Position numbers and translations under genes: made by a program. Below the pieces are notes generated by a model. That model saw only the letters and a program-made list of their open reading frames with translations, was not told the origin of the DNA and did not search any database. From Nitratiruptor sp. YY08-10 (lineage in GTDB: Bacteria; Campylobacterota; Campylobacteria; Campylobacterales; Nitratiruptoraceae), in contig NZ_AP023057.1 of NCBI RefSeq assembly GCF_016629565.1, positions 1,674,001 to 1,738,000 on the forward strand: 64,000 nucleotides of DNA. Direction: 5' to 3'. Shown in pieces: positions 8,903-16,094 of the stretch; the first letter of the stretch is position 1, and each line of letters opens with the position of its first letter.

Positions 8903-10243
8903 TCACGTATCATACAATATCTTTTTGAGTTTTAATTCAATCTCTTCTGGCTCCCAAAGAATCTGTTTTTTAATAGTTCGATTAGTAGCAAGTCGAAGGA
9001 TTATCTCTAAAAAGTATGCTCCAAAAAAAGCCAGCAACACATACCATCCGACCAAAGGAAGCTTTTGTTGCGTATACGCCAATGCAAAACCGGCAGATGC
9101 AAATGTACCAATAGAGGCAAGGAGTACAAAAAACGGATTGGCTCCAGTCTTTTTGAGTTTCAAAAAATGTCCAGTATGTACAAAGCCTTGAATCAACAAA
9201 ACCACTATAGCTGCAACTGTAGCAATCTCTTCAAGATGTAAAAAAAGAACCATTGGAACAATCAAAAGAGCCGAGACAATCAATCCTTCAGTCGATTTAA
9301 AGACATTATACTCATACACTTTAGGAAGTTCTCCCTTTTTTGCCAAGTCGTAACTGATCTGTGTCGCTGCATACAATGACGCATTGATGGCACTGGTCGC
9401 ACTAATAAGAGCAACGGCTGCCATTATTTTAAATCCCAACTCACCAAATATAGGCTTTGCAGCTTCCGCCAAGGCGTAATCTTTTGCTTTGATCACTTTT
9501 GAGAGAGGGAGATTGCCTATAACAGCTACTGATGTTGCTACATACAAAACAACAACGATACCAATGGAAAGCAGCATCGCCTTTAACATCGTTTTATGAG
9601 GATTTTCCATATCTTCTACACTGTTTGTAATTACACTAAAGCCTTGATAGGCGAAAAAGACCAGTCCTAAAGCATACAGCATATCAAGCCAACCGTGGGC
9701 TTTGTCAGGAAGAAGTCTTTGCGGTTCGATATAAAAAAGAGCCGCAACTACAAACAGTGTAATGGCACTGAGTTTAAAAACGACAATATAATTCTCACTC
9801 TTTGCTACTATGGAAGCACCCAATAAATTAACAAAAGTAAAAAAGGCTAATATCCCGATAGCAAAAAGATTGACAGTAAAAGGAGTAATACCAGATGATG
9901 TATACGTAGCTGCATAAATACCAAAAGATTTTGTCACTGCCGCTAGTCCTATGAGCTGGGCAAGATAAAAAAGAACTCCCAATGCACCACTAAAAAAGCC
10001 TTCACCATATTCATGAACCAAATACTCTATCACGCCTCCACGGCTTGGATAGCGAAGAGCAAGCTTGGCCAGGGAATACCCTGACAAAAGAGCGATGAAT
10101 CCACCAATCAAAAAGGTATAGATGACCATATTGCCAGCAATCGCTCCAGCCTCTCCTATGACAATAAAAATCCCAATACCTACCATAGAGCCAATTCCCA
10201 AAAAGGCTGCGCTCCAAAGTCCAAAAGCTTTTTTAGATTCCAC
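8903..10243 (-). CDS. APC-superfamily amino acid permease
   Basis: A 446-residue transporter with about twelve membrane segments. The N-terminal GLWSAAFLGIGSMVGIGIFIVIGEAGAIAG carries the glycine-rich unwound helix of amino acid-polyamine-organocation transporters. FAYQGFSVITNSVEDMENPHKTM is the conserved region around TM6-7. Translation starts at GTG 10243, preceded by AAAGAGG. The gene is divergent from ppk2, with a 63-nt shared promoter region that contains TATACT. The transported amino acid cannot be assigned from the sequence. Confidence 0.9.
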   Translation of the reverse strand: MESKKAFGLWSAAFLGIGSMVGIGIFIVIGEAGAIAGNMVIYTFLIGGFIALLSGYSLAKLALRYPSRGGVIEYLVHEYGEGFFSGALGVLFYLAQLIGLAAVTKSFGIYAATYTSSGITPFTVNLFAIGILAFFTFVNLLGASIVAKSENYIVVFKLSAITLFVVAALFYIEPQRLLPDKAHGWLDMLYALGLVFFAYQGFSVITNSVEDMENPHKTMLKAMLLSIGIVVVLYVATSVAVIGNLPLSKVIKAKDYALAEAAKPIFGELGFKIMAAVALISATSAINASLYAATQISYDLAKKGELPKVYEYNVFKSTEGLIVSALLIVPMVLFLHLEEIATVAAIVVLLIQGFVHTGHFLKLKKTGANPFFVLLASIGTFASAGFALAYTQQKLPLVGWYVLLAFFGAYFLEIILRLATNRTIKKQILWEPEEIELKLKKILYDT

Positions 10244-10306
10244 AAAACCTCTTTAAATCTTCTTTAATCTCTTTAGAACTATACTATAGTGAAACAAAGG
10301 TGAAAA

Positions 10307-11065
10307 ATGGATAAAAAAGCGTATAAAAAAGAGCTGTATCGGCTTCAAGTGGAACTTGTCAAATTTCAACGTACTGTCATCGAAAAAGATCTTAAAGTAT
10401 GCACTATTTTTGAAGGACGCGACGCAGCGGGAAAAGATGGAACAATCAAACGATTTACCGAACACTTGAGTCCTCGTGACACAAGAGTGGTAGCTCTTCC
10501 CAAACCATCCGAGCTTGATAAAAAATACTGGTATTTCCAGCGTTATATCCACCATCTTCCCCGAGGAGGAGAGATGGTCTTTTTCAACAGAAGCTGGTAT
10601 AACCGTGCAGGTGTTGAAAAAGTGATGGGATTTTGCACAAATGAAGAGTATGAAAAGTTTATGCAAGAGGTACCGAATTTCGAACACCTTCTGGTTCATG
10701 ACGGTTTTATCTTTACAAAATATTGGCTTGATATCACAAAAGAGGAGCAAAAAAGACGGCTTGAAGAGCGAAAAAAAGATCCCCTAAAACAGTGGAAACT
10801 CAGTCCCATTGATCAAAAAGCCCAAGAGCTTTGGGATGCATACTCACTTGCTCGTGATGAGATGTTTGCTAGAACCCATTTTACCTATGCTCCGTGGTAT
10901 ATCGTTCGAGCAGATGACAAAAGAGTGGCTCGCATCAATGCGATAAAACACTTTTTAAGTAAAGTGGAGTATGAAGGCAAAGATGAATCTCTTTTACTCT
11001 ACGATCCAAATATCGTGTGTGAATTTGACAAAGTCTGCTATGAAAAAGGGCTCATAGCACCATAA
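10307..11065 (+). CDS. ppk2: Polyphosphate kinase 2 (PPK2 class I-like)
   Basis: A 252-residue P-loop kinase. FEGRDAAGKDGTIKRFTEHLSPR gives the Walker A motif (near residues 38-45) with the downstream Arg lid residues. FNRSWYNRAGVEKVMGFC is the Walker B region of the family. DITKEEQKRRLEERKKDPLKQWKLSPID is the conserved lid module. The enzyme uses polyphosphate to phosphorylate nucleoside diphosphates. The length is that of a single-domain PPK2. A good ribosome-binding site (AAAGG) precedes ATG 10307. It heads a plus-strand run with a small helical protein and a flavin reductase. Confidence 0.95.
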   Translation: MDKKAYKKELYRLQVELVKFQRTVIEKDLKVCTIFEGRDAAGKDGTIKRFTEHLSPRDTRVVALPKPSELDKKYWYFQRYIHHLPRGGEMVFFNRSWYNRAGVEKVMGFCTNEEYEKFMQEVPNFEHLLVHDGFIFTKYWLDITKEEQKRRLEERKKDPLKQWKLSPIDQKAQELWDAYSLARDEMFARTHFTYAPWYIVRADDKRVARINAIKHFLSKVEYEGKDESLLLYDPNIVCEFDKVCYEKGLIAP

Positions 11066-11078
11066 CAAGGAGGAAACA

Positions 11079-11396
11079 ATGGCTCAACTGGAAAAATATA
11101 TGTTTTATTACATGGACACTATCAGCGAACGACAGTTTAAAGAGGCAATGGAATTAGCCCGTCAAATGCTTGAGATATGTGAAGATGAGAGTGCTCCTGT
11201 AATAGAGGGACTATTGAGTGCAGCAACTTGTTTAGAGGCTTTGAAAATGGGAGATTTCGATGAAGTAGAGGCACTGTGGAATGCCTATGAAGAGTCCAAA
11301 AAATTTTTGATGCCGCAAAACAGACACTATGCGCTTCTTTTAGAGACAACACTTATTTTGGAAAACACTAAAGAAGAGATAGAGAGGATCATATGA
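11079..11396 (+). CDS. Hypothetical small helical protein
   Basis: A 105-residue acidic protein predicted to be nearly all helical, with alternating hydrophobic and Glu-rich segments (FKEAMELARQMLEICEDE, EGLLSAATCLEALKMGDFDEVEALWNAYEES). The pattern resembles tetratricopeptide-like helix pairs, but no repeat consensus is convincing. It has no signal peptide or membrane segment. AAGGAGG precedes the ATG. It sits between ppk2 and the flavin reductase and overlaps the latter by 4 nt (ATGA). I do not recognise the family. Confidence 0.8.
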   Translation: MAQLEKYMFYYMDTISERQFKEAMELARQMLEICEDESAPVIEGLLSAATCLEALKMGDFDEVEALWNAYEESKKFLMPQNRHYALLLETTLILENTKEEIERII

Positions 11397-11965
11397 TTAT
11401 AGAATTTGATTCGTTGGAACTGAAGAATCGGTATAAAATTATGAGTAGATCGATCATTCCAAGACCCATCGCATGGATCGTCACAGAAGGCAAAACTCTC
11501 AATATCGCACCTTTTAGCTACTTTATGGCTTTGAGTTCCAACCCCGCTACCCTGATCGTCTCAATCGGACACAAAAAAGATGGCTCGCCAAAAGATACGC
11601 TTAAAAATATTTTAGAAACGAAAAAGTGTACCATTTGTAGCGTAGCACCCGAACATATCACAAAAATGCACCAAAGCAGTGAAATGTTGGCAGAAGAAGA
11701 GAGTGAAGCCGAAAAGTTTAATATTGCTACACAAAAGATTCTTGATGGATTTCCTCCTATCATCAAAGGGGCTCCAAGTGCCTTTTTTTGTCACTTCTAC
11801 CAAAAAGTAGATCTTAAAGGAAGCAAAACTATTCCACTTATTTTGGAAATAGAATCTTACTATGTGGATGATCGATACGCGAATGAAAATTTCGATATAG
11901 AGTTTCAAACCGTTGCAAGAGTCGGAAAAGAGTATCGACTCTGTGAGAAGAGAATAGAACCATAA
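11393..11965 (+). CDS. Flavin reductase-like (FMN-binding split barrel) protein
   Basis: A 190-residue protein of the DIM6/NTAB flavoprotein family (flavin_reduct, PF01613 type). The N-terminal RYKIMSRSIIPRPIAWIVTEG and NIAPFSYFMALSSNPATLIVSIG contain the FMN-binding barrel signatures (RPIAWV, NxAPFSxF). SPKDTLKNILETKKCTIC follows as expected. It probably reduces or binds FMN in the cytoplasm. The start overlaps the preceding gene by 4 nt, so the two are co-translated. Substrate and partner monooxygenase, if any, are unknown. Confidence 0.9.
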   Translation: MIIEFDSLELKNRYKIMSRSIIPRPIAWIVTEGKTLNIAPFSYFMALSSNPATLIVSIGHKKDGSPKDTLKNILETKKCTICSVAPEHITKMHQSSEMLAEEESEAEKFNIATQKILDGFPPIIKGAPSAFFCHFYQKVDLKGSKTIPLILEIESYYVDDRYANENFDIEFQTVARVGKEYRLCEKRIEP

Positions 11966-11975
11966 GCTACTTTTG

Positions 11976-12021
11976 TCCTTGTTTTTTTCTCTATTTTTGA
12001 TATGATGGAAAAAAACAAGGA
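11976..12021 (+). promoter_or_regulatory. 14-bp perfect inverted repeat covering the amrS ribosome-binding site, with overlapping promoter-like hexamers
   Basis: TCCTTGTTTTTTTC (11976-11989) is exactly complementary to GAAAAAAACAAGGA (12008-12021), with an 18-nt loop. The right arm contains the AAGGAG ribosome-binding site of the first radical SAM gene (ATG 12029). If transcribed from upstream, the site would be hidden in the stem. The same stretch also offers TTGTTT (11979-11984) and TATGAT (12001-12006) spaced by 16 nt, a plausible -35/-10 pair. A transcript from that promoter would lack the left arm. Confidence 0.5.
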
Positions 12022-12028
12022 GCAAAAC

Positions 12029-13051
12029 ATGGTAGCGGACGCCTGGCTCTCTAAAGAGCTGAAAGATGGTAAAGTTCTCTGTCTTGCATGTGCTCATGCT
12101 TGTAAACTTGAACCCGGTGAATTTGGAAAATGTGGGGTTCGAGTCAACGAAAACGGCAAACTCAAGTCGACTGTCTATGGTCTTGCAGCTGCTGCACATA
12201 TCGACCCGATTGAAAAAAAGCCGATGTTTCATTTTTTGCCAGGCTCGACTATTATGAGTATTGGAACTGTCGGGTGCAACTTTTGCTGTCAATTTTGCCA
12301 AAACTGGGAGATTAGCCAATATCCACAGACAAATGGCTACAAAGTTTTTGGTCAGGAGCTGATGCCGCAAGAGATTGTTAAGATTGCATTACAATATGGA
12401 TGCAAATCGGTCGCCTACACCTACAATGAGCCAATCGTCTATTTCGAATACACCTATGATACGGCAAAACTTGCTCACGAAAAGGGACTGAAAAATGTCT
12501 ATGTCACCAGTGGATTTGAGACAAGACGCGCAATTGACGAGTTGGCTCCCTATATTGATGGAATGAATATCGATATCAAATTTTTTAAAGATGAAAGCTA
12601 TCAAAAAATCAGCTGTGCCAGACTCAAACCGGTGCTTGAAGCCATCAAATATGCCCATCAAAAGGGAATCTGGATAGAAACCACAACGCTTATCATCCCT
12701 GGCATAAACGACAGCGACCAAGAGCTAAGAGATATCGCAAAATTTATGGTAGATATCGACCCCAATATGCCTTGGCATGTGAGCCGTTTTCACCCAGACT
12801 ACAAAATGCTCGATCGCCCAGTCACTCCATATGAAACCCTCAAACGTGCCTATGATATAGGCAAAGAGGAGGGATTAAACTACGTCTATATAGGTAACTA
12901 TCCAGATGAGGATTTAGAATCCACCTACTGTCCAAAATGTGGATTGAAAGTGATCGAGCGAGCAGGCTATCTTGGAGAGCAGGTCAAAAACCATCTCATA
13001 GATGGAAAATGTCCAAAATGCGGTGAAACAATAGCGGGAGTTTGGAAATGA
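12029..13051 (+). CDS. amrS: Radical SAM enzyme, AmrS-type (first of a tandem pair)
   Basis: A 340-residue radical SAM protein. GTVGCNFCCQFCQNWEISQYPQ carries the CxxxCxxC motif that binds the 4Fe-4S cluster. It is flanked by an N-terminal Cys region (CLACAHACKLEPGEFGKCGVR) and a C-terminal zinc-ribbon pair (CPKCGLKV ... CPKCGETIAGVW). This is the architecture of the AmmeMemoRadiSam radical SAM protein related to pyruvate formate-lyase activases. No AMMECR1 or Memo gene is adjacent. ATG 12029 was chosen for its AAGGAG at the right distance; earlier in-frame ATGs lack one. The stop overlaps the next paralog's start by 4 nt. The chemical reaction is not established. Confidence 0.88.
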   Translation: MVADAWLSKELKDGKVLCLACAHACKLEPGEFGKCGVRVNENGKLKSTVYGLAAAAHIDPIEKKPMFHFLPGSTIMSIGTVGCNFCCQFCQNWEISQYPQTNGYKVFGQELMPQEIVKIALQYGCKSVAYTYNEPIVYFEYTYDTAKLAHEKGLKNVYVTSGFETRRAIDELAPYIDGMNIDIKFFKDESYQKISCARLKPVLEAIKYAHQKGIWIETTTLIIPGINDSDQELRDIAKFMVDIDPNMPWHVSRFHPDYKMLDRPVTPYETLKRAYDIGKEEGLNYVYIGNYPDEDLESTYCPKCGLKVIERAGYLGEQVKNHLIDGKCPKCGETIAGVWK

Positions 13052-14070
13052 AAGTGCATGCGTGGTTGAGCAAAAAACTTCCTTCGGGGAAAATTTTATG
13101 TGAAGCATGCGCACAAGCCTGTAAACTGAGTGAGGGCGAGTATGGGATCTGCGGTGTTAGAAAAGTAGAAGATGGAGAGCTGAAGCTTTTAGTGTATGGC
13201 AAAGCAGCCGCAGTCAATGTGGATCCAGTTGAAAAAAAGCCGATGTTTCATTTTTTGCCCAATACAAAAGTATTCAGCTTTGGAACAGTTGGATGTAATC
13301 TCAGCTGCTCTTTTTGTCAAAATTTTGAGATCAGCCAATTTCCTCAGGAACATGAACATAAAATCTTTGGCCACGATCTCATGCCCCAGCAAGCGGTGGA
13401 GCTTGCCTTGCAGCATGGATGCAGCTCCATCGCTTATACCTACAACGAACCGATTGTCTGGTTTGAATATAGCTACGATACAGCAAAACTTGCCCATGAA
13501 AAGGGTTTAAAAAATATTTACGTTACCAGCGGGTATGAGACAAGAAAGGCACTAGATCAGTTGGCTGGTGTCATTGATGGAATGAATATCGATCTCAAAG
13601 CCTTCACAGATAGATTTTACAAAGAACTGTGTGGTGCTAGACTAAAACCTGTCCTTGAAGCGATAGAGTATGCTTATAAAAAAGATATCTGGATAGAAAT
13701 CACGACGCTTTTCATTCCGGACCAAAATGACAGTGAAAAAGAGATGCGCCAAATTGCAAACTTTATCGCTTCGCTTGATACGGCAATTCCATGGCATGTA
13801 AGCGGATTTTATCCAACGTACAAGATGACCGATACCCATCCAACACCACCCGAAACGCTGCTAAAAGCCTACAAAATCGGCAAGGAGGAAGGACTCAAGT
13901 TTGTCTATGTAGGCAATTTCAACGCACCCGAATTTGAAACTACATACTGCCCATCATGTGGGTATGCAGTGATAGAGCGAAGCGGACATATCGGACAGCA
14001 GGTGCAAAACCATCTTGTAGATGGACGCTGTCCAAAATGCAATACATTTATCCCAGGAGTTTGGAAATAA
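13048..14070 (+). CDS. amrS: Radical SAM enzyme, AmrS-type (second of a tandem pair)
   Basis: Also 340 residues, a clear paralog of the preceding gene with long shared stretches (VEKKPMFHFLP, YTYNEPIVWFEY, GLKNIYVTSG, GMNIDLKAF). The cluster motif is CNLSCSFCQNFEISQFPQ. The N-terminal Cys set (CEACAQACKLSEGEYGICGVR) and the C-terminal zinc ribbon (CPSCGYAV ... CPKCNTFIPGVWK) are kept. All cluster ligands and zinc cysteines are intact, so both copies look active. ATG 13048 overlaps the upstream TGA (ATGA), which implies translational coupling. The stop abuts the convergent SYLF gene with no spacer. The pair probably arose by tandem duplication. Confidence 0.88.
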   Translation: MKVHAWLSKKLPSGKILCEACAQACKLSEGEYGICGVRKVEDGELKLLVYGKAAAVNVDPVEKKPMFHFLPNTKVFSFGTVGCNLSCSFCQNFEISQFPQEHEHKIFGHDLMPQQAVELALQHGCSSIAYTYNEPIVWFEYSYDTAKLAHEKGLKNIYVTSGYETRKALDQLAGVIDGMNIDLKAFTDRFYKELCGARLKPVLEAIEYAYKKDIWIEITTLFIPDQNDSEKEMRQIANFIASLDTAIPWHVSGFYPTYKMTDTHPTPPETLLKAYKIGKEEGLKFVYVGNFNAPEFETTYCPSCGYAVIERSGHIGQQVQNHLVDGRCPKCNTFIPGVWK

Positions 14071-14712
14071 CTAGTATTGACTCAAAAGGGCTTTTATCTT
14101 TTGAATGTATCTGTTTGCCTTATGTACGTTTCCTGCAATCACCCTTCGGGGTGAAGCATGATAGAACCTTCTTGTCTTTTCATAATCTATATCCAAAACA
14201 GCACCTTTGAGCGTAAGCCCAGCAAAAATTCCCCGACTTTTAGAGTAAGAGTATATTTCGCTTTTGAATTTGATATCGGTGCTTGCCTCGCCGGCTCTTC
14301 CAACCGGACCGGCTGCCACCGAGGCATCGGCTCCGAGTGTAAATTTTCCGCTTACCAGTCTATCCACACTCTCATGTGTTTCAAAAACAAGCATCACATC
14401 GATACTCTCAAGCCCGATCTGCCAGCCAAAGCTTCCACCTGCAAGTTTAACAAAAACGGGATCACTCCAGGTTCGGCCATGTCTCACCATCAAGATCCCT
14501 TCCCCGTATCTTCCTCCTATGACAAATCCTCCACGGATAACACCAGGTATGATGGCTATGGCTTTTGCATTGGCTAAAAGCTTTTTGGGGATCTTTTTTT
14601 CTGGCATATGCAAAAACTCTTTCAACGCATAATAGCTATCTTGCAATATTGCATCCGGTGAAGCAGCAAATATAGAACCAACAAAAAGCAACATCAAAAA
14701 TAGTTTTCTCAT
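14071..14712 (-). CDS. Exported SYLF-domain (YSC84-like) lipid-binding protein
   Basis: A 213-residue protein with a cleavable-type signal peptide (MRKLFLMLLFVGSIFAAS). The SYLF/Ysc84 domain follows: IPKKLLANAKAIAIIPGVIRGGFVIGGRYGEGILMVR, then FVKLAGGSFGWQIGLESIDVMLVF, then KFTLGADASVAAGPVGR. SYLF domains bind phosphoinositides in eukaryotes; bacterial exported versions are poorly defined. Its ATG overlaps the stop of the histidine kinase gene (ATGA), so it is the last gene of the two-component operon. That suggests a cell-envelope output of the pathway. Confidence 0.88.
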   Translation of the reverse strand: MRKLFLMLLFVGSIFAASPDAILQDSYYALKEFLHMPEKKIPKKLLANAKAIAIIPGVIRGGFVIGGRYGEGILMVRHGRTWSDPVFVKLAGGSFGWQIGLESIDVMLVFETHESVDRLVSGKFTLGADASVAAGPVGRAGEASTDIKFKSEIYSYSKSRGIFAGLTLKGAVLDIDYEKTRRFYHASPRRVIAGNVHKANRYIQKIKALLSQY

Positions 14713-16094
14713 CTCTTCTCCTCTTGCAGTAATTTTGTATCAAAACAGAATCGGCTCCCCTTTTTATATGTACTTTCAATATGCAGTTTTGCGCCATGCA
14801 GATCGAGAATATATGATACTATATAAAGTCCCAGTCCCATGGAATTATCAAAACTGTGTTTGATGCGGTAAAACTTTTTGGTGATTTTTTCTAAATGCTC
14901 CTCCTGTATCCCGATACCTCTATCTTCAACGCAAAAAAGGCCATCTTTGCATATGATCTTTACATCCGATTCGGAATATTTCAAAGCATTATCCAAAAGG
15001 TTGAGAACAACTGTCTCTATCAACGCTTTATCCGCATAAATTGTGCATATTTCACAGTCAAAAACAAAGCTTCTGTTTTTATATTTTTGTTTCAAAAAGG
15101 CAGCAGACTCTTTAACCAGTTCACACAGATCGAATCTGCTTTTTTGCAACTCTATCGAACTGCTTTCAAATTTCATAGCCAAAGCGAGTCTATCTATCAT
15201 ATAGGTTATCTTTTCACTGGCTTGATAGATTTTTTGGATAAAACGCTGCTGCAAAGCCTGTGGCATATCCGGTTCATCCAACAAAGACTCGGCATATCCA
15301 TGAATAATGGCCACCGGATTTTTGAATTCGTGGCTTACCGCGGATATAAGTTCATTACGCTGTTTGGAGATCTCTTTGATCTTTTGGGTAAATTTTTTCT
15401 TTTTTTCTTCTCTCTTTTTCAGTTTTTGAGCCAGTTTTTGCAAATGTTTTGTGATTGTTTCAAACTCTTGGGCAAATTTTGCTTTATAAAAAACATCATA
15501 CTCTTTGTGCGAGAGTTTTTTCACATACTCTACAATTCCATCAATCTCCTGTTTCACTTTTTGGCTTAAAAGATAAGAAACTACCAAAGCAAAAAGTATA
15601 AGCCCCAAAAAAAGAAGTAAAAATCGTATCCACAATGCAAGAAAATGCTTTTTGATTTCATCGACAGGATAAGCTACACGTACAATCATATCTCCAAATC
15701 TGTGCGCAACATACAAAAGATTTTGATGAATGGTTGAGGAGTAGCGTTCACTCCAGCCCCATCCCTTTTTCAAAGCCTCTTGCACCTCAGGTCGTAATCT
15801 ATGATTCTCCATTTCGCTTTTATCGTGTCTGCTTTCTGCCAATACTTTGCCATCAAGTCCGATAACGGTAATTCTGCTCTTTATTTTTTGATCAAGTTGG
15901 CGAACGAGATCATCTTTAACCCCTTTGGAAGCAAGGACCTCTTCTGTTAAAATGATCTCATTTTCCAATAGTTTTTTGAAATTATCCAGCTCGATATTTT
16001 TAATACCATAGTAGCTCACAAAAGAGAGCACGACAAAAAGAAGACTCAACAGCAGCAGTAGATGATTGAAAAAAATTTTATGCAGTCTTAACAT
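14709..16094 (-). CDS. Membrane sensor histidine kinase
   Basis: A 461-residue kinase. TM1 (about residues 10-30) and TM2 (about 150-172) bracket a periplasmic sensor region. A charged helical linker rich in Lys follows, then HisKA with the phospho-acceptor in SAVSHEFKNPVAIIHGYAES near residue 255. The HATPase domain has ETVVLNLLDNALKYS (N box), VEDRGIGIQEEHLEKI (G1) and GLGLYIVSYILDLHGAKLHIES (G2). It is paired with the OmpR-type regulator, whose stop overlaps its start by 7 nt. The signal sensed is unknown. Confidence 0.93.
   Translation of the reverse strand: MLRLHKIFFNHLLLLLSLLFVVLSFVSYYGIKNIELDNFKKLLENEIILTEEVLASKGVKDDLVRQLDQKIKSRITVIGLDGKVLAESRHDKSEMENHRLRPEVQEALKKGWGWSERYSSTIHQNLLYVAHRFGDMIVRVAYPVDEIKKHFLALWIRFLLLFLGLILFALVVSYLLSQKVKQEIDGIVEYVKKLSHKEYDVFYKAKFAQEFETITKHLQKLAQKLKKREEKKKKFTQKIKEISKQRNELISAVSHEFKNPVAIIHGYAESLLDEPDMPQALQQRFIQKIYQASEKITYMIDRLALAMKFESSSIELQKSRFDLCELVKESAAFLKQKYKNRSFVFDCEICTIYADKALIETVVLNLLDNALKYSESDVKIICKDGLFCVEDRGIGIQEEHLEKITKKFYRIKHSFDNSMGLGLYIVSYILDLHGAKLHIESTYKKGSRFCFDTKLLQEEKR

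Follow-up and report, generated by a model that had tools for sequence, protein, structure and literature searches.

The radical SAM superfamily is established to cleave S-adenosylmethionine reductively, giving a 5'-deoxyadenosyl radical. One of its families, AmrS (TIGR04337), belongs to the AmmeMemoRadiSam system together with AMMECR1 (system protein A, TIGR04335) and Memo (system protein B, TIGR04336), two proteins that have human homologues. Adjacency to the genes of these partners is common among AmrS genes, even if it is not required. No description of AmrS chemistry was found in the literature searched, most subscription journals being outside its coverage, and sequence searches for a solved structure of the family returned only PFL activase and MoaA. 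One article (PMC7159879) refers the reader to Burroughs et al. (2019) for Memo-Ammecr1 systems.

Here we describe two AmrS genes joined in tandem in Nitratiruptor sp. YY08-10. They lie in a stretch of 64,000 nucleotides, the window (C1:1674001-1738000), from a genome of 1.82 Mb in 2 contigs that was searched as a whole. Though known, the system is uncharacterized; the pair represents a genuine variant arrangement within it, both old and conserved.

The tandem genes and their products

The genes discussed below are the following, in coordinates of the window.

10307..11065, + strand: polyphosphate kinase 2 (PPK2), slot neighbor; TIGR03707 359.8 bits, cut-off 301.8
11079..11396, + strand: 105-aa protein, slot neighbor, without Pfam or NCBIfam match
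11393..11965, + strand: flavin reductase-like gene (FlavRed), directly upstream of amrS1; PF01613 75.4 bits
12029..13051, + strand: amrS1 (copy 1), AmrS-type radical SAM enzyme, 340 aa; TIGR04337 369.9 bits
12277..12300, + strand: codons of the CX3CX2C radical SAM motif of AmrS1 (C83, C87, C90); coordinates from residue numbers
13048..13051, + strand: ATGA overlap of the amrS1 stop and the amrS2 start, read from the sequence
13048..14070, + strand: amrS2 (copy 2), AmrS-type radical SAM enzyme, 340 aa; TIGR04337 369.2 bits
13294..13317, + strand: codons of the CX3CX2C radical SAM motif of AmrS2 (C83, C87, C90); coordinates from residue numbers

An earlier note on this DNA had described two tandem AmrS genes of equal length, joined by an ATGA overlap and with all their cysteines intact, and each of these points holds. 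The genes are + strand neighbors and both encode exactly 340 residues, from ATG 12029, with AAGGAG just 5' of it, and from ATG 13048; a mechanical ORF caller had placed the starts slightly earlier, at 12002 (amrS1) and 13042 (amrS2). The overlap is found at 13048-13051 and gives the two genes the geometry of co-translation. A scan of 10100-14800 for promoters and terminators gave matches at chance level.

Both products are members of the AmrS family, as they score above the curated TIGR04337 cut-off of 220 bits and carry the CX3CX2C motif as well as the N-terminal and C-terminal cysteine quartets. Their sole Pfam match is Radical_SAM, and the genome holds no third TIGR04337 match. The two proteins are identical at 217 of 340 positions. 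In a 70-row AmrS alignment, the 73 family-invariant columns (at least 97% invariant in rows outside the genus) are all intact in AmrS1 and AmrS2. In a second alignment, C18, C21, C25, C35, C83, C87, C90, C301, C304, C328, and C331 are invariant in 41/41 rows, and all are present in both copies. By analogy with the family, these cysteines would hold the cluster and zinc.

Distribution and history of the two copies

The overlapping pair is found in 7 of the 16 genomes of the genus of the source strain, hereafter g1 (G000, G001, G002, G009, G013, G014, and G015), and the ATGA overlap is kept in all seven. Hence, the paired conservation that the earlier note had proposed to look for is found in relatives. 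Eight other g1 genomes (G003-G008, G010, and G012) have copy 2 only, and in G011 the sole trace of AmrS is a piece of copy 2, 97 residues long, at the end of a contig. Among the copy-2-only assemblies, G004, G006, G007, and G008 are incomplete, with the bases upstream of copy 2 read and holding no copy 1, and G010 is a complete genome. No relic of copy 1 was seen beside copy 2 in the eight single-copy congeners, where the matches were copy 2 itself or at chance level. In the sister genus, g3, the five genomes all have copy 1 only, and G016 has a single, copy-2-like AmrS. No tandem AmrS pair occurs outside g1 in a class sample of 298 genomes, evenly drawn and at least 90% complete, nor among the best matches listed for the phylum to which G312, a Clostridia record, belongs (348 genomes).

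The gene slot itself is shared. The order PPK2 - 105-aa gene - flavin reductase - AmrS is common to pair genomes (for example G001, G009, G013, and G015), to g1 genomes with copy 2 only (G007, G008, G010, and G012) and to g3 genomes with copy 1 only (G017-G020). Partial slots are seen in G016 (flavin reductase - AmrS) and G021 (PPK2 - AmrS), and the flavin reductase gene next to AmrS is missing in G003, G004, G005, and G014. In G006, an extra 221-aa gene on the opposite strand (L104:2815-3480 (-)) separates the flavin reductase gene from copy 2. A role of the flavin reductase as a functional partner was considered and is unsupported, as its gene persists in genomes that lack one or the other copy and does not accompany AmrS at other loci.

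In a 70-row tree, the group of copy 1 also takes in the AmrS of g3 and of Hydrogenimonas (17 rows, 99/96). Copy 2 and the remaining g1 genes form a group of their own (15 rows, 100/100), nested in a larger clade of 38 rows (100/98) that also holds solo AmrS from other families. The phylogeny by which the earlier note had proposed to date the duplication thus gives an old split. Indeed, the AU test rejects (p-AU 6.7e-6) the tree expected from a recent lineage-specific duplication, in which copies 1 and 2 of g1 form one clade; its log-likelihood is lower by 92. Two vertical groupings are tolerated by the AU test, g3 copy 1 as one clade (p-AU 0.131) and copy 2 with G016 (p-AU 0.611). Neither gene conversion nor chimeras between the copies were seen, and the copies stay at 63-65% identity.

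From its position in the tree and in the slot, copy 1 appears to be orthologous to the sole AmrS of g3. Since g1 and g3 are closer to each other by PPK2 and SDR identity than either is to G016, the simplest history would be a g1/g3 ancestor with both copies in the slot, followed by loss of copy 2 in g3 and of copy 1 in several g1 lineages. Alternatively, lateral transfer from g3 or a Hydrogenimonas-like donor may have brought copy 1 to a place next to an already present copy 2, a course of events that we regard as unlikely. It would account for the patchy presence of copy 1 in g1 and for the nesting of g1 copy 1 inside g3 plus Hydrogenimonas, seen in the 70-row tree and in a 113-row tree of class-sample AmrS. 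However, the slot is identical in g1 and g3, and the divergence of copy 1 between the two genera (identity 0.882 within g1, 0.792 between g1 and g3) is the same as for four genes in or near the slot: PPK2 goes from 0.884 to 0.814, and the steps of the flavin reductase, Cyt and SDR are similar. The 105-aa gene drops faster, from 0.766 to 0.445. The nesting is also compatible with vertical descent, on the sole ground that the AU test allows copy 1 of g3 to be monophyletic. A lateral origin concerns only the history of the genes and can hold together with any of the functional readings weighed below, be the copies isoenzymes, specialized or parts of a heteromer.

AMMECR1, Memo and the two classes of AmrS

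The pair had been described in the earlier note as being without AMMECR1 or Memo. This holds for its neighborhood, where the adjacency common in AmrS is absent, but not for the genome, which encodes one AMMECR1 (C1:1557667-1558194; TIGR04335 199.2 bits, cut-off 99) and one Memo (C1:850428-851198; TIGR04336 234 bits, cut-off 26). Both are on the same contig as the pair, at distances of about 128 kb and about 835 kb, respectively. Among the 22 genomes of the family, that of the source strain included, AMMECR1 is present once in all 22 and Memo once in 20, whether there is one AmrS or two, and nowhere in these 22 does a second AMMECR1 or Memo go along with a second AmrS copy. Memo was not found in two family genomes, of which G008 is 88% complete and G014 is split into 370 contigs. 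Single-copy relatives, namely g3, G016 and the eight congeners, all have AMMECR1, and all but G008 have Memo.

At the level of the class sample (298 genomes), AmrS is found over its cut-off in 78 genomes, full AMMECR1 in 90, Memo in 87 and all three in 77. Both partners are present in 77 of the 78 AmrS genomes; none is without Memo and one (G225) is without AMMECR1. Nine genomes lack AmrS but have both AMMECR1 and Memo, and another four have AMMECR1 alone. G280, whose sole AMMECR1 match is short and partial (39.2 bits), is left outside the count of 90.

At AMMECR1 loci devoid of AmrS (L105, L106, L107, L108, L109, and L111), G137 and G222 have hemH ahead of AMMECR1, and in these two as well as in G271 and G029 an ElyC/DUF218 gene adjoins the AMMECR1/Memo genes. 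Short frames (89-147 aa) with partial matches to the AMMECR1 model, mostly to its first 65-117 positions, were also observed in G178, G064, G269, G254, G201, G308, G232, G280, and others, and recur in one family of the class.

The 113-row tree separates an operonic clade (54 rows) from a solo clade. Within the operonic clade, 52 of the 54 genes are within 2.5 kb of AMMECR1 or Memo, the exceptions being that of G225 and one gene of G249. In the solo clade this is the case for 0 of 29 mapped genes and 0 of 6 tandem genes (0/35). Besides the pair genomes, eight genomes of the sample have two AmrS genes, and in all eight there is one of each clade. A protein-L-isoaspartate methyltransferase (PCMT) gene is close to solo AmrS at 9 of 22 loci outside the family (for example L068:842-1450 (+)), these loci not being independent of one another.

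Proteins joining two components in one chain were also found. AmrS-Memo proteins of 597 and 592 aa are encoded in G061 and G256, with both halves over the NCBIfam cut-offs, at the following loci.

L160:530-2320, - strand: AmrS-Memo fusion, from profile matches
L159:3102-4877, + strand: AmrS-Memo fusion, from profile matches

A Memo-AMMECR1 protein of 482 aa with a hydrophobic, signal-peptide-like start is encoded in G030 (L161:521-1966 (-)), and a shared frame of 494 residues suggests a similar fusion in G302. In G072 (L156:2560-4338 (+)), a periplasmic-binding-protein domain is fused to a radical SAM domain that resembles AmrS but is divergent (117.7 bits, under the cut-off), directly 3' of a periplasmic binding protein gene. 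Other AmrS-like matches below the cut-off lie in long frames (597-704 aa) of G221, G250, G263, G138, and G224.

Because AmrS co-occurs with AMMECR1 and Memo, because operonic-clade genes lie beside them and because AmrS-Memo and Memo-AMMECR1 proteins occur as one chain, AmrS probably acts in one pathway with the two partners.

Function of the copies and comparison with known systems

AlphaFold2 models of the two proteins have a mean pLDDT of 94.8 (AmrS1) and 91.5 (AmrS2). A fold search of the PDB with the AmrS1 model ranks PFL activase first (Z 23.8, 2.1 A over 225 residues) and NifB second (Z 18.0). As intact radical SAM enzymes with a PFL activase-like core, the two copies would most likely each cleave S-adenosylmethionine to a 5'-deoxyadenosyl radical.

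Neither copy is degenerate. A pseudogene or relaxed copy is ruled out by intact frames and by dN/dS values (NG86) of 0.025 (copy 1) and 0.019 (copy 2) for G000-G001, and of 0.054 and 0.029 for G009-G013, the only two genome pairs that are not saturated; in the other 19, dS is saturated or high. Hence, both copies appear to be under purifying selection. The earlier note had named single-copy relatives combined with relaxed selection on the other copy as what would speak against its reading; the former exist, but selection is relaxed on neither copy (dN/dS 0.019-0.054). The dN of copy 2 exceeds that of copy 1 in 17 of 21 genome pairs (means 0.080 for copy 1 and 0.100 for copy 2).

Across the seven pairs, the copies show fixed differences at 38 columns. 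With family-invariant columns set aside, the columns that hold a single residue within each copy differ between the copies at 16 of 32 positions in the loops of the active-site face vs. 22 of 103 elsewhere (p 0.0022), these loops being those at the C-terminal ends of the barrel strands as assigned from predicted secondary structure. Four other definitions of the loops, out of five in all, give p 0.0096, 0.0074, 0.015, and 0.045. The controlled value of 0.0022 replaces one obtained without control for conservation (p 3.65e-5), which conservation biased. Copy 1 has W93, H255, D257, and N40, as do most AmrS genes beside AMMECR1/Memo; at the same positions, copy 2 has F93, Y255, T257, and V40. The excess of fixed differences on the active-site face suggests specialization.

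The reading that we favor, and hold to be rather probable, is that the two genes are ancestral tandem isoenzymes serving one AMMECR1/Memo system and reciprocally lost in relatives. In this scheme, the common ancestor of g1 and g3 would already have carried the two ancient paralogs as a tandem, the overlapping pair being kept in about half of g1, and both copies would feed the single system encoded elsewhere in the genome, acting in parallel on the same or closely related substrates. One copy alone would be enough, since relatives have kept only one. Some observations pull the other way. The overlap is kept in every pair, a hint of balanced dosage and possibly of a complex; g1 copy 1 rows nest inside g3; the co-occurrence seen in the class partly reflects shared ancestry; two assemblies (G008 and G014) have no Memo match; and the presence of partners in single-copy genomes is no proof that the pathway works there. 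Because the active-site face holds more than its share of the fixed differences, the substrates may also differ. Copy 2 and its solo relatives would then act on a substrate or position other than that of copy 1, and single-copy genomes would miss one reaction. The residues at positions 93, 255, 257, and 40, together with the identity of 63-65% held without any conversion or chimera seen, fit with such specialized paralogs, a possibility that carries some weight even if we lean against it; however, the second copy comes without a second AMMECR1 or Memo, and the partners are the same where copy 1 is alone, in g3, and where copy 2 is alone, in other congeners.

The earlier note had proposed a heteromer or two sequential reactions, and both are weakened by the distribution. 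The ATGA overlap in 7/7 pairs, the equal lengths and the purifying selection on both copies would suit two chains forming one enzyme, but in the five g3 genomes with copy 1 only and the eight congeners with copy 2 only, as in G016 with its copy-2-like gene, neither needs the other. On the favored reading, reciprocal loss and single partners argue against an obligatory two-step relay as well as against an obligate heteromer, the latter being very improbable. Finally, the activase fold leads us to guess that the substrate of AmrS could be a polypeptide. Its target might then belong to the AMMECR1/Memo pathway, the invariant LRGCIG motif of AMMECR1 being one candidate, and the two copies might have evolved to act at two different sites or targets; little probability can be given to this idea.

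The two genera offer a natural comparison in the search for the shared substrate, between g1 genomes, with copies 1 and 2 or copy 2 alone, and g3 genomes, with copy 1 alone, all with a single AMMECR1 and nearly all with Memo. The split between operonic and solo AmrS, together with the AmrS-Memo and Memo-AMMECR1 one-chain proteins, provides a supply of expression constructs.

Three known groups are close to the pair. PFL activating enzyme (PFL-AE, PDB 3CB8) has the closest solved fold, matching residues 47-288 of AmrS1 with 22% identity. In contrast to this enzyme, AmrS has extra N-terminal and C-terminal Cys4 segments, and the copies score only 65.6 and 55.1 bits (copies 1 and 2) with the PFL activase profile TIGR02493, far below its cut-off of 231.75, which places them outside that family. 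The solo AmrS of other families of the order, among them relatives that we take to be Sulfurimonas-like, form the 38-row clade in which copy 2 groups, but theirs is a single gene with other neighbors, such as PCMT at 9 of the 22 loci of this clade that lie outside the family. With the AmrS of AmmeMemoRadiSam systems, the copies share scores of about 370 bits, the family-invariant residues and the presence of system proteins A and B in the genome. Whereas 52 of the 54 operonic-clade genes are adjacent to AMMECR1 or Memo, the present locus carries two coupled copies away from both.
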